Origin: Nitrospirae bacterium CG02_land_8_20_14_3_00_41_53
Lineage (GTDB): Bacteria > Nitrospirota > Thermodesulfovibrionia > Thermodesulfovibrionales > SM23-35
Assembly: GCA_002780895.1 (NCBI GenBank)
Contig: PEUB01000092.1
Span: 1 to 49,293 of the forward strand
Length of the DNA: 49,293 nucleotides
Direction of reading: 5' to 3'
Shown here: piece after piece, positions 76 through 47,832 of the stretch
Layout: each line of letters begins with the position of its first letter
Numbering within the stretch: the first letter of the stretch is position 1
Position numbers and translations under genes: made by a program
The notes under the pieces: model-generated
The model's input: the letters and a program-made list of their open reading frames with translations, nothing else
Told to the model about the DNA's origin: nothing
Databases searched by the model: none

Positions 76-2805
76 TCAACAGATCATTATACTCTTCTTC
101 AGTTCTTTTAACCCCTTCACCCTCTCCCTTAACTCATTGACAAAGAACTGATAATCATCCATTCCCTCTGGTTTTCTGGAGATGTCTAAGTCATTTTTAT
201 AAAAAGGTCTTCCGAATATGACTTTCATCTCTGTAAATTTCGGCCATATTGCACCACGTGGCAAGGCATCAAATGAGCCTTTGATATAGGCCGGAACAAC
301 GGGCACATTAAGTTCCAGAGACAGTATGCCCACCCCCTTTTTGAATTCCATTATCTCACCATCATAAGACCTCCCCCCTTCAGGGAATATCAAAAGGGAT
401 TTCCCGTTTCTCAGGATATAAGATGACATCTGGAGTGCCTTGCTTAGATAGGTTTCAGGGTCTGCCGGAATAACATGGGCAAGCCTGGCAAATGACTCCT
501 TAAACGTACCTGTAAAGTATTTTTGAAAACCCAAGGGATATAAATCCCTGTATGATTTTGATGGAAGTGCAGCAACAACAGTAAATCCATCAAGATAGCT
601 CGTGTGATTGGGTGTGATGATATAAGGTCCTTTTTCAGGTATATTTTCAAGACCCGCGACTTTTAGTCTGAAAAATATTTCCATGATAATCTTTATCAGC
701 CTTAAACAAATAAGGATTATCAGCCAGTCTAAAAAACCGTGATGAAGTCCAACCTTTTTTCTGTCATCAAAATTAGGCTCTGCATTTAAGATGTCTTTCC
801 ACATTGGCATTTCTTCAATCCTACCAACACCACGTATTCCATATTCTTTTATCCTTGTAACAAGTTCCTCGACAGTCTGTACCTCAGATGCAAAGGTTTC
901 AGGAAGTTTCATTGAGAATGCCTTTTCGAGTGAAACAACAAGTTCTATTCTGGCCAATGAGTCAAACCCGAGGTCAAGCTCAAGATTGTCTGTTGATTGT
1001 ATTTGAATCTTCTCTTTCAGCAAAGATGTTATACATCTAACAACCCTCCTACCTATTTCATCTTCCACGAGTCTTCTGTCCTTACTCTTTGCTCTTCGCT
1101 CTTCGCTCTTTGCTTTTATGAGGTCTTTAATCATGAACCTTCTGAGTTTACCGAGAGGGGTTCTCGGCAAGGAATCAGGATAAATGGTGTATCCTTTTAC
1201 CCTCATATACTGCGGCATATGGAGTGAGATATTATTTACCTCCCATTTCAGGGTCTCATGTAGATTCCCGATCTGTGCCTTTTTTGCATACTCAAAGTCT
1301 GGCACTATTACTGCGTGAAGGGATTCAATAATATCTAATCCCCCCTTGCCCCCCTTTACTAAAGGGGGGGGTAAGGGGATTACACATATTTCCTTAATAA
1401 GAGGGATTTTCATATACTGTTTTTCAACATCCTCTGGATAAACATTTTTCCCTGAGCTTAGAACAATTACTTCTTTTAAGCGTCCTGTTATAAATAGATA
1501 ACCATCATTATCCATATATCCAATGTCTCCGCTAAAAAACCATCCCTCTTTTATTACCTGTTCTGTTGCCTGGGGATTTTTGTAATAGCCCTTCATAACC
1601 ATAGGCCCTTTTATTGTAATCTCACCCTCTTCCATTACACCCAACTCCTCATGACTTTCAGGATCTATTATCTTTATCTCTACAGATGGAAGGGGCCTGC
1701 CCGCAGAACCTGCCTTTCTCTTTGTAATCGGGTTAAATGTAACGACAGGCGAAGTTTCTGTCAGGCCGTAACCCTCAACAACTTTAAAACCAAATGCCTC
1801 AAGGTCTTTCATCACCTCAGGATCAAGTTTTGCACCTCCGCTTCCAAAGAACCTGAACCTTTTACCGAGTGCCCTGTGAATTGATTTGAAAATTAATCTC
1901 CCCATATTGATCCTTGAATTTTTTTTAAGATTCCCACAGAGCTTTAAAATGCCAATCATTATTTTTGGTAAAGGGCCGGGTAATTGCTTTATCCTATTCA
2001 GGATTCCATTTCTTATAAGTTCGAGAAGTTGTGGTACTCCAATAAGAATGGTTACTCCTTTATTCTTTATTGTTGACATGATTTCTGGGCCTTTCAGGCC
2101 TGGTGGGAATGTGATAGAAGCACCTAATAAAACCGGTACAAGGAATGTACACATAAATGGATAGGTGTGATGTAGCGGCAATATTGAAAGAACATTATCA
2201 TTATGTGTAACAATTTCAGCCTTTACAATAGCCTCTGCATCTGAACAGAAGTTTTTATGCGTAAGTTGTACTCCTTTTGGTATGCCTGTTGTGCCAGACG
2301 TGTATATAAGTGATGCAACATCTTCCCCAGAAACTTCCGGGTAATTATTAATTGCCGGGGTTTTGCATATATCCTTAAATTCGGGTGAATCGAAGTTTAT
2401 TAAAGTGAGAAGTGAGAAGTGAGAAGTGAGAAGATCTCTAACTGCTTTTCTTACATTTTCTTCAGTCTTTGAACTATGAAATACTAGTTTTGACCCAGAG
2501 TCAGCAAGAAGATTTTTTATATCATCAGATCCAAGCTGAGCATCTATTGGAACTGCAATCCCTCCTGACAAAGATATGGCAAGATATGAAGTGCACCATT
2601 CTGGCCTGTTCTCAGAAATAATTGCAATCCTGTCGCCCTTTTTTATTTTACTTTTTATAAGATAGGATGCGGTGCCTTTTGTGTTGCTTAAAAGCTCATT
2701 ATATGTGATTATCTTCCATGTCTGATCAAAGTAATTGAAGACGATATTGTCCTTGTATTTAATGGCTGAGTTTGAGAATTGCTTATAAATATTATATCCT
2801 GTCAT
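76..2805 (-). CDS. Fused acyl-CoA synthetase - acyl carrier protein - 1-acylglycerol-phosphate acyltransferase
   Basis: This 909-residue protein joins three activities. Residues 1 to about 560 form an AMP-binding (ANL) acyl-CoA/acyl-ACP synthetase, with the phosphate loop YTSGTTGIPKG at 168-178 and the later SGDIGY and GRLKEVIV motifs. An acyl-carrier domain follows, with its phosphopantetheine serine in GFDSLARIE near residue 613. The C-terminal part is a PlsC-type acyltransferase, with the HX4D motif NHTSYLD near 732 and FPEGGRS near 807. The fusion suggests that a fatty acid is activated, loaded on the tethered carrier and transferred to lysophosphatidate or a similar acceptor at the membrane. 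Two heptamer arrays (near residues 128 and 567) and one GC palindrome (near residue 482) are translated in frame between or within domains. A ribosome site (AAGGA) precedes the ATG. The exact acceptor is unknown. Confidence 0.88.
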   Translation of the reverse strand: MTGYNIYKQFSNSAIKYKDNIVFNYFDQTWKIITYNELLSNTKGTASYLIKSKIKKGDRIAIISENRPEWCTSYLAISLSGGIAVPIDAQLGSDDIKNLLADSGSKLVFHSSKTEENVRKAVRDLLTSHFSLLTLINFDSPEFKDICKTPAINNYPEVSGEDVASLIYTSGTTGIPKGVQLTHKNFCSDAEAIVKAEIVTHNDNVLSILPLHHTYPFMCTFLVPVLLGASITFPPGLKGPEIMSTIKNKGVTILIGVPQLLELIRNGILNRIKQLPGPLPKIMIGILKLCGNLKKNSRINMGRLIFKSIHRALGKRFRFFGSGGAKLDPEVMKDLEAFGFKVVEGYGLTETSPVVTFNPITKRKAGSAGRPLPSVEIKIIDPESHEELGVMEEGEITIKGPMVMKGYYKNPQATEQVIKEGWFFSGDIGYMDNDGYLFITGRLKEVIVLSSGKNVYPEDVEKQYMKIPLIKEICVIPLPPPLVKGGKGGLDIIESLHAVIVPDFEYAKKAQIGNLHETLKWEVNNISLHMPQYMRVKGYTIYPDSLPRTPLGKLRRFMIKDLIKAKSEERRAKSKDRRLVEDEIGRRVVRCITSLLKEKIQIQSTDNLELDLGFDSLARIELVVSLEKAFSMKLPETFASEVQTVEELVTRIKEYGIRGVGRIEEMPMWKDILNAEPNFDDRKKVGLHHGFLDWLIILICLRLIKIIMEIFFRLKVAGLENIPEKGPYIITPNHTSYLDGFTVVAALPSKSYRDLYPLGFQKYFTGTFKESFARLAHVIPADPETYLSKALQMSSYILRNGKSLLIFPEGGRSYDGEIMEFKKGVGILSLELNVPVVPAYIKGSFDALPRGAIWPKFTEMKVIFGRPFYKNDLDISRKPEGMDDYQFFVNELRERVKGLKELKKSIMIC
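1084..1111. repeat. heptamer array (4 units, RCTCTTY) inside the acyl-CoA synthetase fusion
   Basis: Four consecutive 7-bp units (ACTCTTT GCTCTTC GCTCTTC GCTCTTT) lie in the linker between synthetase and carrier domains. On the coding strand they give a Lys/Arg/Glu/Ser-rich segment. The reading frame is kept. Confidence 0.85.
1337..1381. repeat. GC palindrome, AATCCCCC type, in frame in the acyl-CoA synthetase
   Basis: AATC and C-tracts pair with G-tracts and GATT around a TTTAnnAAA centre. It encodes a Pro/Gly/Lys-rich insertion near residue 482, in the synthetase C-terminal subdomain. A close relative lies in holB at 9437-9480. Confidence 0.85.
2404..2431. repeat. heptamer array (4 x AGTGAGA) inside the acyl-CoA synthetase
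   Basis: Four perfect tandem copies of AGTGAGA lie in the N-terminal half of the synthetase. On the coding strand they give the segment LLTSHFSLLTL near residues 125-135. The frame remains open. Confidence 0.9.
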
Positions 2806-2961: not shown

Positions 2962-5900
2962 ATGAGGTTCATCGGTCTTGATGCAGGCTCTGGTAGTGTG
3001 AAGCTTGTTATCCTTGATGAAAAAGGTAACAGGCTTTACAGTCATTACGAAAGGCACAAGGGGCTCCCGCTCAATGTTGCCCTCGAACTCCTTAAGACAG
3101 TAACGAGTAACAGGCCACTGGTCACTGGTCACTGGTCACTATCAATCACTGGCTCTGCCGGCAAGTTAATCGCTTCCATCCTTGGTATAGTATCTGTCAA
3201 CGAGATTGTCGCCCAGGCATATTCCACACACAAACTCTTTCCCTATATAAGGACGATAATCGAGATGGGAGGGGAGGATTCGAAACTTATACTCTTAGGT
3301 GAAAACGGCCGCTCTGTGAGAGACTTCTCCATGAATTCCGTCTGCGCCGCTGGCACAGGCTCCTTTCTCGACCAGCAGGCAGAAAGACTAAGGCTTACAA
3401 TAGAAGAATTCAGCGAGCTTGCGCTGAAATCAAAAAAGCCACCGAGGATTGCAGGAAGATGTAGTGTATTCGCAAAATCTGACATGATACACCTCCAGCA
3501 GATAGCAACACCCGTTGAAGATATTGTAGCCGGTCTCTGTTTTGCCCTTGCGAGGAACTTCAAAGGCTCTATATTAAAAGGCAGAAAGATGATACCTCCG
3601 GTATCTTTTCAGGGAGGAGTTGCAGCAAATAAAGGGATGGTCAGGGCCTTTAAGGAAATCTTCGAACTCGACGAGCTATTTATCCCTGAGGATTACGCAC
3701 TTACGGGAGCAATCGGCGCTGCTTTAAAGAACATGCATGAGGGCAGGATACAAAATTTTGACCTATCAAAGCTTGAGGAATTTCTAAAATTACCCAGGCC
3801 CATCGAGGCAGGGTACCCGCCCTTGATTGACTCTGATCAAGAATCAAGCATCACCCCCTCCCTCACCCTCCCCCCTCGAGGGGGAGGGCAGGGGTGGGGG
3901 GGCAGACCAAGCTCAGAACGAATTAAGGCATATCTCGGCATTGATATTGGTTCTATCAGCACTAATCTTGCTGTAATAGATGAGTATGGAAAACTCCTCT
4001 CAAAAAGATACCTTATGACAGCAGGCAGGCCTATAGAGGCAGTTAGACAGGGGCTTTCAGAGGTAGGTGAGGAGATTGGAGATAAGGTCCAGATAATGGG
4101 TGTTGGCACAACAGGCTCAGGTAGATACATGATTGCTGACTATGTTGGCGCTGATATGGTAAAGAATGAGATTACAGCCCATGCGGTAGCTGCGGTATTT
4201 ATTGATAAAACTATTGATACGGTCTTTGAGATTGGTGGACAGGACTCAAAATTCATATCACTTAAAGATGGCGTTGTCGTTGACTTCGAGATGAACAAGG
4301 CATGCGCAGCAGGAACAGGTTCTTTTCTCGAGGAACAGGCAGAAAAATTGAATATCTCGATTAAGGGAGAATTTGAAGAGTCTGCGCTTTCCTCTAAAAA
4401 TCCTTGCAGACTTGGCGAAAGGTGTACTGTATTTATGGGAAACTCCCTGTTGGCAAATCTCCAGAAAGGTGTTAACAGGAATGACCTTCTTGCAGGTCTC
4501 TCATATTCTATTGTCCAGAATTATATAAACAGGGTTGTTGCAGGAAAGGCGATAGGTGAAAATATAACTTTTTTAGGTGGTGTTGCCTTTAACAAAGCTG
4601 TTGTTGCTGCATTCGAGAATTACCTCGACAAAAAGATACCTGTTCCATCTCACCACGAGGTCGCTGGCGCAATAGGTATGGCATTAATTGCAATGAGAAA
4701 TGTAAAAGATAAGACTAAATTCAAGGGGTTTGAACTTTCAAAAAGGCCTTACGAGATATCATCATTTGAATGTAAAGGCTGCCCTAATATTTGTGAAATA
4801 AACAGGGTGAAGATTGCTGGCGAAACAGGCTTTCTCTTTTATGGAGGAAGATGCGAAAAATATGATATAAGAAAGAAAAAGACATCCAGCCTCCCCGACC
4901 TCTTTTCATTCAGAGATGAAATGCTGTGGAAAGAACATCTGCAAAGACACTCAATAGTCAATAGTCAACAGTCAGAAGTCAGCCCACCCACCCACCCCTC
5001 CCCCTCGAGGGGGGAGGGTAAGGGAGGGGGTGATAACTCCGAACTCAAAACTCAAAACTCAAAACCGAAGATCGGCATTCCCTATATCTTCTTCTTTCAT
5101 GATTATCTTCCTTTCTGGACAACACTTTTATGGGAGCTCGGATTTGATGTAGAGGTTTCTCCAAAGACGAATAGACAGATCATTAACCTCGGACTTGAAC
5201 GTCTTCTTTCAGAGGCGTGTTTCCCTGTGAAGGTTGCACATGGGCATATCAGCTATTTGCTTGATAAAAGTGTAGATACAATATTTTTACCGAGCTTTAT
5301 TAATCTCAACACACCAGAAGACCGCTTTGATAGGGGGTTTGCCTGCCCTCATATACAGACAATTCCTTACGTCTCAAAGGTTGCATTTGATGGAATAAAC
5401 ATAATTTCTCCGAAAATAAATTTAAGACTTGGCAAGAGATTTCTGTTAAACGAACTCAAGAATGCCTTTAAACCATTCGGCATAAGTAAATCTTCAATAT
5501 CTATAGCGATTGATAATGCACTTAAAGCGCAGGATGAGTTCAATAATGCTATAAAGGCAAAAGGTGATGAATTTTTATCATCAATTAAGGATATTACTAT
5601 CGCGATCATAGGAAGGTCGTATAATGCCCTTGACAATGGCGCAAATCTTGAAATACCTAAAAAACTTGCGGATCTCGGCATTTCTTCAATCCCCATGGAT
5701 TTCCTGCCACTCGAAAGATACACAATCGACAGTGAGTGGCCTAATATGTATTGGAGATCTGGTCAGATGATACTTAAGGCTGCAAGATTTATAAAAGATA
5801 CCCAAAATCTTTATGCTATTTATATAGGGAATTTTTTATGCGGACCTGACTCGTTTATTCTGAAATATTTCAAAAAGGAAATGGGCAGAAAACCCTTCCT

Positions 5901-7245
5901 GCATCTGGAGATTGATGAACACAGTGCAGATGCAGGCATAATAACAAGGTGTGAAGCATTCATTGACAGCATCCAGAACAAGGTTCAAGGTTCAAGGTTC
6001 AAGGTTCAAGGTAAAGATAAAAGTTTAAAGGATATCACATCTAACGCCTTACGTTTCACGTCTCACGTCTCACGTACCATTTACATACCCCGTATGTCAG
6101 ACCATGCATTTGCCCTTGCATCTGCATTTCAGCACTGTGGCATTAATGCCGAGGTTCTCCCTGAGTCTGATAAAGAGACCGCAGACATGGGAAGGAAATA
6201 TGTCTCGGACAAGGGATGTTATCCATGTACAGTCACCACAGGTGATATGATAAAAAAGGTCATGCAACCTGATTTTATCCCTGGGAAAAGTGCCTTTTTC
6301 ATGCCCTCTGGCACAGGCCCGTGTAGATTTGGTCAGTATAATGTATTCCACAGGATGGTTCTTGATAGCATTGGTTATGCGGATGTGCCTATATTTTCAC
6401 CAAACCAGGATACAACTTTTTACAGCGACCTTGGAATTGTTGGCAAGGATTTCACAATGCACGCATGGAGAGGTATTATTGCTTACGAACTTCTTAACAA
6501 ATGCCTCCATGAGGTTAGACCATACGAAAAAAATAAAGGGTTTGCAGATGAGCTATATAAAAATTATCTACAAAAGTTATACCTTTCTTTAAAAAGTAAT
6601 AATGGTAATTTAGAGGAAATCCTGAAGGATATAAGAGAAGACTTTGAGAACCTTCCCAAGCACAAAGACAGAAAACCTCTTATTGGAATAATTGGTGAGA
6701 TATTCGTTAGGTCCCATAAATTCTCTAACGAGAACCTTATAAGAAAGGTTGAGTCATTGGGTGGTGAGGTATGGCTAGCGCCAGTAGAGGAATGGATTTA
6801 CTATATAAACCTCATGGGCTTAAAGAAGGCATTGTTAAAAAAGGAATGGTCTGATATTATTAATTTCCTCTTGAAGAAATTCTTCCAGAAGAGGATAGAG
6901 CATAAACTTGCAAGACATTTTAACGGTTTTCTGAAAACATTGAAAGAGCCTGAAACGAAAGAGATACTTAATAAGGCATCACCTTATCTGCATAGCTCAT
7001 TTGAAGGTGAGGCTATTTTAAGTATCGGGAAATGTATTGATCTTTTAGAAAGAGGGGCCTCGGGCGTTATAAATGCTATGCCCTTTGGTTGCATGCCGGG
7101 TACTATTGTTACTGCAATCTTGAGAGGGGTGTACAGGGACTATGGCGTTCCATACATCAGTATACCTTATGATGGGACAGAGTCACCTTCAACAGACATA
7201 CAGATCGAGGCATTTATGGATCAGGCCAGAGAATATAGCAGATAG
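2962..7245 (+). CDS. Giant acyl-CoA dehydratase activase / HgdB-like fusion protein
   Basis: This 1427-residue protein has two tandem BadF/BadG/BcrA/BcrD-type ASKHA ATPase modules followed by a DUF2229/HgdB-like region. Each ATPase module carries the CAAGTGSF motif (near residues 125 and 446) and a second cysteine motif (GRCSVFAKSD; ERCTVFMGNS near 486). In 2-hydroxyglutaryl-CoA dehydratase and benzoyl-CoA reductase activases these cysteines hold the bridging [4Fe-4S] cluster used for ATP-driven electron injection. The C-terminal half (from about residue 700) contains further conserved cysteines, such as KGCYPCTVT and FGCMPGT, as in dehydratase subunits. Such activase-dehydratase fusions are widespread in anaerobes and their substrate is generally unknown. 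Four separate blocks of repeat DNA are translated within the gene, at about residues 50-60, 297-314, 664-702 and 1006-1038, mostly between domains. Confidence 0.88.
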   Translation: MRFIGLDAGSGSVKLVILDEKGNRLYSHYERHKGLPLNVALELLKTVTSNRPLVTGHWSLSITGSAGKLIASILGIVSVNEIVAQAYSTHKLFPYIRTIIEMGGEDSKLILLGENGRSVRDFSMNSVCAAGTGSFLDQQAERLRLTIEEFSELALKSKKPPRIAGRCSVFAKSDMIHLQQIATPVEDIVAGLCFALARNFKGSILKGRKMIPPVSFQGGVAANKGMVRAFKEIFELDELFIPEDYALTGAIGAALKNMHEGRIQNFDLSKLEEFLKLPRPIEAGYPPLIDSDQESSITPSLTLPPRGGGQGWGGRPSSERIKAYLGIDIGSISTNLAVIDEYGKLLSKRYLMTAGRPIEAVRQGLSEVGEEIGDKVQIMGVGTTGSGRYMIADYVGADMVKNEITAHAVAAVFIDKTIDTVFEIGGQDSKFISLKDGVVVDFEMNKACAAGTGSFLEEQAEKLNISIKGEFEESALSSKNPCRLGERCTVFMGNSLLANLQKGVNRNDLLAGLSYSIVQNYINRVVAGKAIGENITFLGGVAFNKAVVAAFENYLDKKIPVPSHHEVAGAIGMALIAMRNVKDKTKFKGFELSKRPYEISSFECKGCPNICEINRVKIAGETGFLFYGGRCEKYDIRKKKTSSLPDLFSFRDEMLWKEHLQRHSIVNSQQSEVSPPTHPSPSRGEGKGGGDNSELKTQNSKPKIGIPYIFFFHDYLPFWTTLLWELGFDVEVSPKTNRQIINLGLERLLSEACFPVKVAHGHISYLLDKSVDTIFLPSFINLNTPEDRFDRGFACPHIQTIPYVSKVAFDGINIISPKINLRLGKRFLLNELKNAFKPFGISKSSISIAIDNALKAQDEFNNAIKAKGDEFLSSIKDITIAIIGRSYNALDNGANLEIPKKLADLGISSIPMDFLPLERYTIDSEWPNMYWRSGQMILKAARFIKDTQNLYAIYIGNFLCGPDSFILKYFKKEMGRKPFLHLEIDEHSADAGIITRCEAFIDSIQNKVQGSRFKVQGKDKSLKDITSNALRFTSHVSRTIYIPRMSDHAFALASAFQHCGINAEVLPESDKETADMGRKYVSDKGCYPCTVTTGDMIKKVMQPDFIPGKSAFFMPSGTGPCRFGQYNVFHRMVLDSIGYADVPIFSPNQDTTFYSDLGIVGKDFTMHAWRGIIAYELLNKCLHEVRPYEKNKGFADELYKNYLQKLYLSLKSNNGNLEEILKDIREDFENLPKHKDRKPLIGIIGEIFVRSHKFSNENLIRKVESLGGEVWLAPVEEWIYYINLMGLKKALLKKEWSDIINFLLKKFFQKRIEHKLARHFNGFLKTLKEPETKEILNKASPYLHSSFEGEAILSIGKCIDLLERGASGVINAMPFGCMPGTIVTAILRGVYRDYGVPYISIPYDGTESPSTDIQIEAFMDQAREYSR
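3113..3140. repeat. heptamer array (4 x GGYCACT) in the activase gene
   Basis: Units GGCCACT and three GGTCACT copies are in tandem and encode part of the segment PLVTGHWSLSITG in the first ATPase module. Confidence 0.9.
3851..3905. repeat. GC palindrome, CTCGAG-centred, in the activase gene
   Basis: TCACCCC...CCCTCGAGGG...GGGGTGGGG is a long imperfect inverted repeat. It encodes a Pro/Gly/Arg-rich linker between ATPase modules 1 and 2 (residues about 297-314). Confidence 0.9.
4952..5062. repeat. composite element: heptamers - GC palindrome - heptamers, in the activase gene
   Basis: Four CAATAGT-like heptamers (4952-4979) abut a CTCGAG-centred palindrome (about 4983-5033). The palindrome is followed directly by AACTCCG and three AACTCAA heptamers (5035-5062). 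The block is translated as a Ser/Pro/Gly/Lys/Asn-rich linker between the ATPase modules and the DUF2229/HgdB-like region. This is the clearest case of both repeat kinds forming one unit. Confidence 0.92.
5979..6013. repeat. heptamer array (5 x CAAGGTT) in the activase gene
   Basis: Four perfect CAAGGTT units and one CAAGGTA are in tandem. They encode NKVQGSRFKVQG, in frame, near residue 1010. Confidence 0.92.
6044..6071. repeat. heptamer array (4 x ACGTYTC-like) in the activase gene
   Basis: Units ACGCCTT ACGTTTC ACGTCTC ACGTCTC lie 30 bp after the previous array. Together the two arrays flank a short unique segment and insert about 35 residues before the conserved motif YIPRMSDHA. Confidence 0.88.
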
Positions 7246-9277: not shown

Positions 9278-10330
9278 ATGGCGTTCAGAGACATTATAGG
9301 ACAGGACATGGCAATAAACATACTTCTTAGAACCATTCAGAGAGGTAGGTTACCATCGTCGTATCTATTTATAGGAGAATCAGGCATTGGCAAGAAATTT
9401 ACTGCCATCAATCTTGCAAAGGCGGTGAATTGCCTTAATCCCCCCATCCCCCCTTTAGAAAAGGGGGGTGAGGGGGGATTTGATCAGGGGAGGTATGGGG
9501 GGATGAATGAGTATTCACTATTCACTGACTGTTGCGATGAATGTCCCTCGTGTAAGAAGATTAATGCTGGAGTTCATCCTGACTTTTTACTCATTTCACC
9601 TGAAGGTGGTCAGATTAGGATTGAGGAGATACGGGCGGTCAACGACATACTTTCTTTTAAACCGTTTGAGGGCAGGAATAAGGTTGTTATTGCAGATGAA
9701 GCAGATACTATGAATCCATTTGCAGCAAATGCATTTCTTAAAACCCTTGAAGAACCTCCAAAAGACAGCCTGATAATCCTTATATCATCAAACCCCGACC
9801 GCCTGCCAGATACAATAAGGTCTCGATGTTCAAAGGTAAACTTTACGCCCCTTTCTCACGAGGCATGCAGAAAAGTCATAAAGATCAGCAGTCAAAAATA
9901 CAGCAAAAAGACATCTGAAGTACTCTCGACTCTCGTCAGGCTTTCAATGGGAAGGCCGGGTCTTGCAATCGCAGGAAACCTTATAGAAGATAGGGCATGG
10001 TTTATAAAACTCCTGAAAGGGATGCTAAATGTAGAAAAAGATGGTTGGACATCTAAAGAAGAAATGGAAAGATGGTTCGACATTTTACTTATCCTTTTCA
10101 GAGATATGGCTATAATAAAGATAACTCAGGATGAAACAAACCTTATTAATATTGATTTTAAAGACTATTTAAATAAGTTAAGCAGTTCGATAGATTTAAA
10201 GGTTATAATAGAAAATTATCAAAAAATAAATATATTAATGAGATATTTCAAGTTCAATCTAAACAGATCCCTCACATGGAACTATACAGCTTCATTGCTG
10301 AGAAAGACAATGGATGTTAAATATGCCTGA
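9278..10330 (+). CDS. holB: DNA polymerase III delta' subunit
   Basis: This is the clamp-loader delta' subunit, 350 residues. The AAA+ region begins FRDIIGQDMAINIL, with a degenerate Walker A (GESGIGKK), followed by the zinc module and VVIADEADTM, then the SRC motif (TIRSRCSKV). The zinc module normally has a first Cys and then CxxCxxC close by. Here the first Cys (AVNCLN, about residue 50) is separated from CCDECPSC by an inserted GC palindrome plus heptamers of about 30 residues. The reading frame and the later domains are intact, so the protein is probably functional. No strong ribosome site precedes the ATG. Confidence 0.92.
   Translation: MAFRDIIGQDMAINILLRTIQRGRLPSSYLFIGESGIGKKFTAINLAKAVNCLNPPIPPLEKGGEGGFDQGRYGGMNEYSLFTDCCDECPSCKKINAGVHPDFLLISPEGGQIRIEEIRAVNDILSFKPFEGRNKVVIADEADTMNPFAANAFLKTLEEPPKDSLIILISSNPDRLPDTIRSRCSKVNFTPLSHEACRKVIKISSQKYSKKTSEVLSTLVRLSMGRPGLAIAGNLIEDRAWFIKLLKGMLNVEKDGWTSKEEMERWFDILLILFRDMAIIKITQDETNLINIDFKDYLNKLSSSIDLKVIIENYQKINILMRYFKFNLNRSLTWNYTASLLRKTMDVKYA
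9437..9480. repeat. GC palindrome, AATCCCCC type, in holB
   Basis: AATCCCCCC...CCCTTT pairs with AAAAGGGGGG...GGGGGGATT, a near-perfect inverted repeat. It encodes a Pro/Gly/Glu-rich insertion and is the sister of the copy at 1337-1381. Confidence 0.92.
9505..9525. repeat. heptamer array (TATTCAC x 2 plus a degenerate unit) in holB
   Basis: GAATGAG TATTCAC TATTCAC lies 24 bp after the palindrome, repeating the palindrome-heptamer association seen in the activase and cheW genes. Confidence 0.6.
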
Positions 10331-11213: not shown

Positions 11214-12847
11214 GAAATAAGTTTTTCATTACCACACCTATATATTATGTAAATGACATCCCGCATATAGGCCATGCATATACAACTGTGGCAGCCGATA
11301 TCCTTGCGAGATATAACAGGGTAAAAGGCAAAAAGGTATTTTTTTTAACAGGCGCTGATGAGCACGGCCAGAAGGTTGAAAAGGCAGCGCAGGAGAAAAG
11401 CCGGTCACCAAAAGAGCATGCTGACCTTATGGTGGAGAATTACAAAACACTCTGGTCAAAACTCGATATTAAAAACGATGTCTTCATACGCACTACAGAT
11501 TCAGAACATGTAAAGACCGTACAATCGCTACTGCAAAAGTTATGGGAAAAGGGTGAAATAGAAAAAAGGTTATATTCGGGGTGGTACTGCATACCGGATG
11601 AACGATTCTGGACTGATAAGGAAGTCGTAACTGGTAATTGTCCGGATTGTAAAAGGCCTGTAGAACGTATTACCGAGGAAAACTATTTTTTCTTGATGTC
11701 AAAGTACCAGGAAAGGCTTTTAAAATACATTGATGAAAATCCGTATTATATACTTCCAGAAACACGGAAAAATGAGGTTCTCGGGTTTTTAAAAAATAAC
11801 CCACTCGGTGACCTCTGCATATCAAGACCAAAGCATAGACTTTCCTGGGGTATATCACTGCCTTTCGATGACAGCTTTGTAACCTATGTATGGTTTGATG
11901 CACTTATAAATTACTACTCAGCGACAAAGTATCTTGCCCCAGAACACAGAGTACAGGACACAGCCCCCCCCACCCAGCCCTCCCCCTCGAGGGGGGAGGG
12001 GAAGGGTGGGGGTGAAAATCTCACATCTGAAGACTGGTGGCCTCCCGAACATCACCTGATAGGTAAGGACATCCTAATAATACATGCTATTTACTGGTCA
12101 ACTATGCTGATGGCACTTGAATTATCTCTGCCAAAAAACATCTTTGCACATGGGTGGTGGACTGTTGAAGGGAAGAAGATGTCCAAGTCTGTTGGCAATG
12201 TTGTCGACCCTAATAAAGTTGTGGAAAAATACGGTGTTGATGCCTTCAGATACTTTCTTTTCAGGGAAGTACCATTTGGCCTTGATGGAGACTTCTCTGA
12301 TGAGGCAATGATAAAACGTATCAACACTGACCTTGCGAATGACCTTGGAAATCTTCTATACAGGACACTGGTAATGATCGAAAAGTATTTTGAAGGAAAA
12401 ATCCCTCAGCCGCCTCCTTATGACATTAATGGATCAGTTGATGTGCTTAGAGAAATTCACCTTAAAAATCGCATAGAGAGTATCAAGGAAAAATTTGATG
12501 TTTTAATGGAAAAATTATCGTTTGGTCACGCCCTCGATAAAATCTGGGAGGCAATTAATGATGCAAATAAATTAATCGAAGATGAAGCTCCATGGAACCT
12601 GAGGAAGGCAAATAATATTGATAAACTCTCAAGTGTGCTTTATACACTTGCTGAGGCGATTAGAATCATAGCGGTCTATCTCTTCCCTTTTATGCCAGCA
12701 GCAGCAGAAAAGATGTGGGAACAGCTTAATGTTGAAGAAAAACTATCAAAAATAAATCTTGATAATGGCACAAGATGGGGAAGACTGAAACCCGGGACAA
12801 CGATCAGAAAAGGTACGGCACTGTTTCCAAGAATAGAAAAAGGATAA
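11210..12847 (+). CDS. metG: Methionyl-tRNA synthetase
   Basis: A class I synthetase of 545 residues that charges tRNA-Met. The HIGH motif lies in IPHIGHAYTT near residues 18-27 and KMSKS in GKKMSKSVGN near residue 325. The zinc knuckle is incomplete: the first pair reads CIPDE, with Asp in place of the second Cys, while the second pair, CPDC, is present. There is no C-terminal tRNA-binding domain, as in many short bacterial forms. The start is a GTG at 11210 overlapping the ricT TGA. An in-frame heptamer plus palindrome insertion lies between YLAPEHR and DWWPPEHHLIGKD, extending a loop in the catalytic domain before KMSKS. Confidence 0.95.
   Translation: MRNKFFITTPIYYVNDIPHIGHAYTTVAADILARYNRVKGKKVFFLTGADEHGQKVEKAAQEKSRSPKEHADLMVENYKTLWSKLDIKNDVFIRTTDSEHVKTVQSLLQKLWEKGEIEKRLYSGWYCIPDERFWTDKEVVTGNCPDCKRPVERITEENYFFLMSKYQERLLKYIDENPYYILPETRKNEVLGFLKNNPLGDLCISRPKHRLSWGISLPFDDSFVTYVWFDALINYYSATKYLAPEHRVQDTAPPTQPSPSRGEGKGGGENLTSEDWWPPEHHLIGKDILIIHAIYWSTMLMALELSLPKNIFAHGWWTVEGKKMSKSVGNVVDPNKVVEKYGVDAFRYFLFREVPFGLDGDFSDEAMIKRINTDLANDLGNLLYRTLVMIEKYFEGKIPQPPPYDINGSVDVLREIHLKNRIESIKEKFDVLMEKLSFGHALDKIWEAINDANKLIEDEAPWNLRKANNIDKLSSVLYTLAEAIRIIAVYLFPFMPAAAEKMWEQLNVEEKLSKINLDNGTRWGRLKPGTTIRKGTALFPRIEKG
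11940..12015. repeat. composite element: heptamers plus CTCGAG palindrome in metG
   Basis: CAGAACA CAGAGTA CAGGACA (11940-11960) run straight into a CACCC...CCTCGAGG...GGGTGGGGG inverted repeat (11964-12015). The frame is kept and encodes a Pro/Ser/Gly-rich loop. Confidence 0.9.
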
Positions 12848-37144: not shown

Positions 37145-37780
37145 TTAAATCTTTATTGCATCTTCCATGTGTATTATTGATATGAAACGCTTATCTATTA
37201 CAGCTACACCCTCAATAAATCTAATTTCTGTTTCTGTAAGATGAGAAGGTGGTGGTAAGATTTCAGTCTTTGCAATGCGAACAACACCCAGAACCTTGTC
37301 TATTACTGCGCCAATTGGTCCTTTGGTCCCTTTGATTATCAATATCTTTCCCCTGTGGTCAATGTCTGAAGGTTTGTCTTTAAGGAAAAGTTTGGTCTTG
37401 AGGTCTATCACAGGAATAACCTTGCCCCTGAGCGAGGTTATTCCAAGGAGATAGTTCGGCATCTTTGGAACCATTGTTATCCTCTGATATCTTCGTATTT
37501 CCTCGAGCTCAGAGATTCTGAAGGCAAATTCTTCCTTCAAAAGGCTGAAGGTGAGTATCTCGATTATATCGGTTTCTTCTTTTATTTCAGTGTCTACCTT
37601 TTTTACTTTGTGGTCTGTAGTCTGGAGTTCGTAGTCTGGAGTCTGGACCTCGGGGCTTTCACCCCCACCCTTCCCCTCCCCCCTCGAGGGAGAGGGATGG
37701 GTGGGGGGGCTGACTTCTGACTTTTGAGTATCGGCTGTTTCTGTGTCTTTCAGCTTTTTCCTAATTTTCGCGATATCCAT
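37145..37780 (-). CDS. cheW: CheW-like coupling protein (second), with repeat-derived N-terminal tail
   Basis: A 211-residue protein. The C-terminal 140 residues are a normal CheW domain (ILTFSLLKEEFAFRI; GITSLRGKVIPVIDLKTK; GAVIDKVLGVVRI). The first 70 residues contain a heptamer-palindrome-heptamer element translated as a Pro/Ser/Gly/Lys-rich segment, inserted about 20 residues after the start. The gene overlaps the ATPase gene upstream by 20 bases. Like the other CheW it should couple receptor and CheA; the tail probably adds a flexible arm. Confidence 0.9.
   Translation of the reverse strand: MDIAKIRKKLKDTETADTQKSEVSPPTHPSPSRGEGKGGGESPEVQTPDYELQTTDHKVKKVDTEIKEETDIIEILTFSLLKEEFAFRISELEEIRRYQRITMVPKMPNYLLGITSLRGKVIPVIDLKTKLFLKDKPSDIDHRGKILIIKGTKGPIGAVIDKVLGVVRIAKTEILPPPSHLTETEIRFIEGVAVIDKRFISIIHMEDAIKI
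37611..37730. repeat. composite element: heptamers - GC palindrome - heptamers, in cheW
   Basis: Six TAGTCTG/GAGTCTG-like heptamers (37611-37652) precede a CTCGAG-centred palindrome (about 37659-37709). CTGACTT CTGACTT TTGAGTA (37710-37730) follows it directly. It has the same architecture as 4952-5062 in the activase gene. Confidence 0.9.
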
Positions 37781-45500: not shown

Positions 45501-45590
45501 TCACCCTCCCCCAACCCCTCCCGTTAAGGGAGGGGTATAGTAAAACAGTTCCCTCTCCCCTTGCGGGAGAGGGGTAGGGTGAGGGGGATA
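45501..45590. repeat. two adjacent GC palindromes between the LuxR gene and folK
   Basis: The first hairpin (CCCCTCCC-gttaa-GGGAGGGG, 45501-45537) and the second (CCCTCTCCCC...GGGAGAGGGG, 45549-45590) have outer arms (TCACCCTCCCCC and GGGTGAGGGGGA) that also pair, making a double-headed inverted repeat. They belong to the GC palindrome family and may terminate both converging genes. Confidence 0.75.
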
Positions 45591-47415: not shown

Positions 47416-47832
47416 TTATTTTGCTGACTTTGCTGGCTTTGCTGGCACTGTCTTTTTCTCTGCAGGCCGGATAGTGATACTTTTTGCAGCAATACTTTTT
47501 GCTACATTCTTGCCATCAATCTCGGTGTACTTAGCCTTTACCTTATCACCAACCATTATATCAGCAAGGGCTTTCTTTTCTTTACCGATCTTTATAACGG
47601 TTTTGTCATTTGTTGAAAGTACCACCTCTTTTTTCTTACTCTTTACAGTAAGGGTCCCAGCTGTTGCATCAACAGTGACAACCTCGCCTGAAACCTGCTT
47701 TACTTTTGCCGGTGCCTCTTTCTTTTCAGCAGGTGCAGTTGCAGTTGCTGCCTTCTTCTCCGCTGCAAAGGATATCGAGGTAAGGGCAAATACAAAGAGT
47801 ACTGCAACGATAATCGCTATTGCCTTTTTCAT
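47416..47832 (-). CDS. Small exported Lys/Ala-rich protein with DUF5666-like core
   Basis: A 138-residue protein. The signal peptide is MKKAIAIIVAVLFVFALTSI followed by SFAAE, with cleavage probably after SFA. The core VSGEVVTVDATAGTLTVKSK...IMVGDKVKAKYTEIDGKNVAKSI is a small beta-domain of the DUF5666/OB-like kind, flanked by Lys/Ala/Pro-rich ends. The start is ATG 47832: an AAAGGAGGTGAT ribosome site, complementary to the whole 16S 3' end, lies eight bases before it and contains the GTG that would otherwise extend the frame. It is likely abundant in the periplasm. Role unknown. Confidence 0.8.
   Translation of the reverse strand: MKKAIAIIVAVLFVFALTSISFAAEKKAATATAPAEKKEAPAKVKQVSGEVVTVDATAGTLTVKSKKKEVVLSTNDKTVIKIGKEKKALADIMVGDKVKAKYTEIDGKNVAKSIAAKSITIRPAEKKTVPAKPAKSAK

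Follow-up and report, generated by a model that had tools for sequence, protein, structure and literature searches.

Background

Palindromic elements of Rickettsia, and others similar to them, are hairpins of selfish appearance that are tolerated in frame inside protein genes. These coding palindromes make up families with a sequence consensus and, to our knowledge, contain no heptamer arrays. The small dispersed repeats of cyanobacteria are likewise very small repeated elements that are probably mobile.

Heptanucleotide repeats have been described in several bacteria, including Calothrix, Nostoc, Xanthomonas (unit GGGAATC) and Beggiatoaceae (unit TAACTGA) (PMC4692102, PMC4679880). The GGGAATC arrays of Xanthomonas make up ca. 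70 convergent pairs that could form inverted repeats, and they are 89-93% intergenic (PMC4692102, PMC4679880). As cited in these two papers, a heptamer excess in bacteria has been known since 2007, and the idea that it is related to the contact of the polymerase with DNA is credited to Mrazek and co-workers.

The window analysed here, i.e. the whole stretch of 49,293 nucleotides, belongs to a Nitrospirota genome of 2.0 Mb in 159 contigs. A sequence-only reading had drawn attention to heptamer arrays in it, an observation that is confirmed below and whose interpretation is supported in part. We propose, with some but not high confidence, that the arrays are arms of hairpin mini-elements that are dispersed in the genome and replaced as entire units, unlike ordinary slipping microsatellites.

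Results and discussion

Period-7 arrays in the window, its genome and relatives

The first 7.3 kb of the window contain two divergent genes, both with open frames, in which there are seven period-7 arrays along with three GC-rich palindromes. Gene 1 (76..2805, minus strand) encodes a fusion of AMP-binding, phosphopantetheine-binding (PP-binding) and acyltransferase domains of 909 aa, with a frame that is open across two arrays and one palindrome. Gene 2 (2962..7245, plus strand) encodes an acyl-CoA dehydratase activase-type protein of 1427 aa, with two BcrAD_BadFG domains, DUF2229 and HGD-D, whose nearest named relatives are in Nitrospirota/Thermodesulfovibrionales metagenome genomes.

All five arrays named in the sequence-only reading are present. 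Gene 1 contains, on the minus strand, 4.3 copies of a unit that reads CTCTTYG on the plus strand (1085-1114), in the linker from the AMP-binding to the PP-binding domain, and the flagged solitary array, with 4.4 exact copies of AAGTGAG (CTCACTT on the coding strand; 2403-2433). Gene 2 contains, on the plus strand, 3.6 copies of CACTGGT at residues 50-55 (3116-3140, site A), where relatives have other units, and two arrays in the linker called site F, namely 4.9 copies of CAAGGTT (5979-6012) and an array of ACGTYTC (6051-6075). Two further arrays, also on the plus strand, had been missed: TCAATAG/TCAACAG/TCAGAAG (4951-4982) and AACTCAA (5035-5065), which flank a GC-rich palindrome as the left and right arrays of a composite element in the linker called site D.

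Counting exact period runs of at least 10 matches, the window has seven at period 7, whereas all other periods from 2 to 30 have between none and two. The genome-wide scan by period that had been suggested as a check gave the expected peak: sampled stretches of this genome totalling 860 kb had 38 runs of at least 10 matches at period 7, whereas none of the other periods between 3 and 21 had more than 15, and for runs of at least 14 matches the figures were 16 and at most 5; order-3 Markov shuffles of this sample gave 3 and 0 runs, respectively. In 944 kb around the orthologues of gene 2, the exact runs of at least 14 matches were mostly of period 7 (42 runs), followed by periods 8 (17) and 14 (7), with 0-2 for each other period and none in shuffles. 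In 100 kb of Escherichia coli, periods 3 to 15 were all without such runs. Thus, the abundance of period-7 arrays with many different units greatly exceeds chance expectation in the window as well as in the 860-kb genome sample and in 80 relatives.

The period is fixed and the unit is nearly free. Among 174 arrays there are 98 distinct heptamers, counted with a simple array finder over loci that lack phylogenetic independence; the claim that no unit is shared was nearly right, the exception being a mild ACTC/GAGT bias. Period-8 arrays are also present in some relatives. Units of 8 bases (TTCACCCA, AAGTGTCA, CTTCCGCG) are seen in L014, L025, L028, L033, L043 and L064, at protein positions that match those of 7-base units in relatives. 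At 47420-47446 the window also has an array of period 9, with three copies of TTTGCTGGC.

A period-7 excess could arise if ordinary slippage during replication favoured a step of 7 bases, set by the length of DNA held by the polymerase, in which case the arrays would be simple microsatellites. This explanation agrees with the known bacterial excess and with the published hypothesis (PMC4692102, PMC4679880). As a general account of these arrays we nevertheless consider it fairly unlikely, for reasons that appear with the pairing and the turnover of the arrays.

Placement in genes and coding selection

The arrays of gene 2 are confined to a few places. Of 137 arrays found in its orthologues, 129 lie at six fixed positions within 1348 core columns, near window residues 50, 290, 575, 665, 875 and 1010, most of them between or beside domains. 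At one and the same position different species have different units, even 7-mers in some and 8-mers in others. The linker array of gene 1 at 1085-1114 is also variable, with units of the AGAGCGA type in the window, AGAGCAA in the relative L007 and AAAAGTY in the relative L006. Such constancy of site with unrelated units is not predicted by slippage.

The arrays had been said to lie always inside proteins. This is true for all seven in the window, whereas, of the 39 arrays in the genome sample, 28 are contained completely in ORFs and 5 in part; since 84% of the sample is coding, coding DNA is avoided only mildly. Arrays located in genes are subject to coding selection, as had been proposed: every in-frame stop that a perfect array would imply is altered (26/26), whereas in the two remaining frames the figure is 11/64. 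An example is found at 4951-4982, where the third unit is TCAACAG and TCAATAG would have given an in-frame TAG.

Selection could go further, the 7-base units being kept for the heptapeptide repeats that they encode as spacers between domains. The location of the arrays of the studied genes, mostly between domains and with the frame kept, fits such functional linkers. However, the peptides are completely different between relatives, the arrays span no more than about 12 residues, 11 of the 39 arrays of the genome sample are not wholly in ORFs, and elements of the same type are found between tRNA genes, all of which makes this explanation very improbable.

It might also be argued that the arrays are artefacts of assembly or sequencing, given that most of the genomes are metagenome assemblies and that a relative in a single contig of 2.69 Mb has only a weak period-7 peak (6 runs vs at most 3). 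Against this, gene 2 is in one open frame with near-full coverage in 79 of 80 orthologues, the remaining one being cut by a contig end; in-frame stops are avoided; the arrays recur, with open frames, across many separately assembled genomes; and two genomes close to each other, G020 and G021, have conserved arrays that differ by point changes. We regard an artefact as hardly credible.

Inverted pairs and GC-rich palindromes

The description of the arrays as stand-alone was mostly wrong, as many of them form inverted-complement pairs or flank GC-rich palindromes. If uniform placement is presumed, ca. 1.3 adjacent pairs of arrays are expected in the genome sample and 7.7 in the 80 relatives, where 14 and 61, respectively, were found. 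In the pairs of the genome sample the inverted similarity of the two units is 4.86 of 7 positions, in comparison with 3.82 after permutation of the right arms, and none of 2000 permutations reached the observed value; in the relatives their own observed value was likewise reached by none of 2000, and in the combined set the figures are 4.57 and 3.81 (0/2000; 2/2000 for 8-mers). The same permutation of arm complementarity gave p = 0.004 in stretches of G020 and G021. The direct similarity of paired arms shows no excess over the permuted level. In a scan of the array flanks, the inverted match was 0.44 vs 0.13 after shuffling (8-mers, 0.53 vs 0.07). Because left and right roles are kept in the permutation, a common left or right consensus cannot explain the match, which is between the two arms of a single element.

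The match is most often partial, with a mode of 5/7, and perfect complementarity (7/7) is seen in just 3 of 72 pairs. In the window, the two adjacent arrays of site D, and likewise those of site F, are complementary at 3/7 only (the second array of site F is not a complement of the first), and a composite copy at 37613-37750 (minus strand), made of a short AGTCAGA array, a CTCGAG palindrome and a CTCCAGA array, has units that are inverted-complementary at 5/7. RNA folds of single arrays of the window were mostly non-significant unless a GC-rich palindrome was included.

A stem of 5 bp plus a 2-base internal loop was considered as the cause of period 7 and rejected, as the proportion of pairs with adjacent mismatches (16 of 33) is close to that seen after permutation. 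On the strand read, the mismatches between paired arms comprise 17 A-C and 5 G-U, so that on the opposite strand wobble pairs would be preserved. This hints at a preference for one strand, although coding constraint could be the cause.

Arrays are also associated with palindromes: 13 of the 39 arrays of the genome sample lie at most 60 bp from the core of a GC-rich palindrome, vs 1.0 expected. Counted by pattern, as a strict palindrome finder missed most elements, there are 144 such cores in the 860 kb, 86 of them inside ORFs, and those of the CTCGAG type often have heptamer runs on one or both sides. The window contains GC-rich palindromes at 1338-1384, 3853-3900, 4983-5033, 9440-9480, 11965-12018, 37650-37714 and 45515-45590. 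The first, with a core of the TTTACTAAA type, is missing from L006 and L007 at that site. The second, with a core of the CTCGAG type, is at linker site B, where many relatives have paired heptamer arms. The third, with a CTCGAG core, separates the two arrays of site D, and related copies of it recur widely in the genome; at 11945-12030 (plus strand) a degenerate composite copy has repeats of the ACAGAAC type adjoining a CTCGAG palindrome.

There are several families of GC-rich palindromes (AATCCCCCC...TTTACTAAA...GGGGGGATT; CCCTCCCCCTCGAGGGGGAGGG; ACACACCCCTTAATCCCCTC...), and within ORFs they yield odd peptides, e.g. PLPPPLVKGGKGG. Compound palindrome clusters bounded by CTAAATTGAGCGATT / AATCGCTCAATTTAG are found at L103:10087-10400 and L096:16860-17110; they look like a larger, MITE-like element in which palindromes are repeated in tandem.

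Slippage accounts for the internal homogeneity of the arms, but it predicts neither inverted-complement partners nor an association with palindromes.

The solitary array at 2403-2433

As the flagged array has no inverted partner, it represents either local expansion or an element with a single arm. No array is present at this site in L006 or L007. In comparison with L007 the window protein has seven additional residues, which correspond to 21 bp or three units, so that the extra bases supposed to restore the frame after an addition of 28 bp are not needed here. A net gain of 21 bp resembles local expansion and is a point in favour of slippage, which is a possible origin for the solitary arrays and leaves the rest unexplained. 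Solitary arrays such as this one may be local 21-bp expansions or remnants of elements that have kept one arm.

Turnover between relatives

At array sites, differences are seen within several pairs of orthologues whose amino-acid identity exceeds 88%. L021 and L064, with 89% nucleotide identity, have 7-mers and 8-mers, respectively, at the same sites. Among the few close pairs of genomes in the sample, G020 and G021 were compared over shared stretches with ca. 94% identity. Three sites have different elements in the two genomes (L264/L081, L270/L279 and L272/L280). The L270/L279 site is located between two tRNA genes, with flanks that are 98.7 and 100% identical, and holds arms AGTGAAT...TTCACTG in one genome and AGATTTC...AATCCAA in the other, each folding on itself; the flanks of L272/L280 are weaker (81-88% identical). 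Hairpin elements of this kind are seen in gaps next to tRNA genes at L270:4350-4750, on both sides of one tRNA gene, and in L225 (G021). On the other hand, five arrays common to G020 and G021, a small sample, are unchanged in length and differ by point changes only. Neither whole-element differences between near-identical flanks nor a constant copy number in five shared arrays at ca. 94% identity would be expected from slippage.

Copies of the swapped elements are found elsewhere in the same genome, but they are diverged (74-86% identity). A search in the same genome for a near-identical donor of the swapped elements found none, the best candidates being 82-86% identical. Since the shared arrays differ at about 2-7 of 45-80 bases, a donor that was copied around the time of the G020/G021 split could by now look appreciably diverged. 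Units at distant sites of one genome are more alike than those of different genomes: 15.5% match at 6 or more of 7 positions, vs 5.3% between genomes, and for 8-mers 70% match at 6 or more of 8 positions, vs 17%.

It can also be the case that no donor is involved and that the elements are rewritten in place, hairpin breakage or template switching being followed by fold-back copying of about 7-8 bases that writes both arms. The covariation of arms with nearly arbitrary units, the joint difference of both arms between sister genomes, the failure to find a near-identical donor and the restriction to periods 7 or 8 are consistent with this. If de novo rewriting took place, the elements would form a class in which period and fold are passed on and the sequence is written anew. 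However, the resemblance between distant units of one genome and the presence of full-length diverged copies elsewhere argue for copying between places, and perfect complementarity of the arms is rarely seen. We judge rewriting in place to be unlikely.

The sequence-only reading had taken a common period with variable units to suggest a copying mechanism and not descent from one sequence. It was right that the period is fixed and the unit nearly free; descent may nevertheless play a part, in view of the persistence of sites across species as their content changes and of the copies with 74-86% identity dispersed within a genome.

A model for the arrays

In the hairpin reading that we prefer, the arrays would be the arms, complete or reduced to one, of mini-elements of ca. 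35-130 bp. An element would consist of a run of 3-5 units of 7 bases (8 in some genomes) and a second run, with units that approximate the inverted complement of the first (mode 5/7), the two being separated by a spacer or by a GC-rich palindrome, so that one strand could fold back; its identity would reside in period and fold and not in sequence. Elements would sit where they are tolerated, in protein linkers and in gaps between genes, and a new whole element would replace an old one at the same place, perhaps copied in from another element of the genome and perhaps after breakage that depends on the hairpin.

The period, the pairing and covariation of the arms, the constancy of sites, the differences in whole elements between sister genomes, the diverged copies and the coding selection are results of the analysis, whereas three parts of this model are inferred. 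The hairpin itself might drive replacement by attracting breakage or insertion, and the replacing content might come from other elements. An enzyme may be involved, and circumstantial evidence makes a transposase of the REP type (Y1) one candidate: the genome of the window has six Y1_Tnp matches over the cut-off, and one Y1 protein tested against the REP-associated family REP_Tyr_transpos scored 73 bits (cut-off, 80). An enrichment of palindromes near the Y1 genes of this genome was not clear. Reverse transcriptases gave three matches in the same genome.

Relation to known systems

A heptamer excess in bacteria is already known; the architecture described here and its turnover appear to be new. 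A literature search found no paper on this architecture in Nitrospirota, with thin coverage of subscription journals. Exchange of whole elements, with flanks and copy number kept, is a testable alternative to a grip of the polymerase, and pairs of close relatives provide the material for such tests. In this reading, protein linkers are rewritten by DNA elements of nearly free sequence. This affects annotation, for instance that of unusual linker peptides (ELRVMSYEL, SRITHHASR), and bears on models of how small repeats persist.

The arrays resemble the bacterial heptanucleotide repeats in their 7-base unit, low copy number and dispersal, and in the excess of 7-base tandem repeats over other periods. 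The known repeats, however, have one or a few units per genome, and those of the Xanthomonas/Nostoc type are mainly intergenic with one dominant unit, while here there are dozens of units, mostly in ORFs. Also unlike the known repeats, here arms covary, GC-rich palindromes are associated with them, and sites are fixed while their content is exchanged.

With REP/REPIN sequences, which are moved by RAYTs (REP-associated tyrosine transposases), they share the small size and the dispersed short inverted repeats, as well as the presence of Y1_Tnp genes in the genome. REP/REPIN have a conserved palindrome and, at the foot of its stem, a short tag, whereas the heptamer arms are arrays of free units with almost no common sequence; the GC-rich palindromes do share sequence. 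In addition, and unlike REP/REPIN, the elements described here are often found in coding DNA.

The small dispersed repeats of cyanobacteria are similar by description, being very small and probably mobile. Also by description, the palindromic elements of Rickettsia are hairpins in frame within protein genes, and here too insertions inside ORFs leave the frame unbroken. In contrast to the Rickettsia elements, however, the sequence of those reported here is free, and what is kept is the period and the fold.
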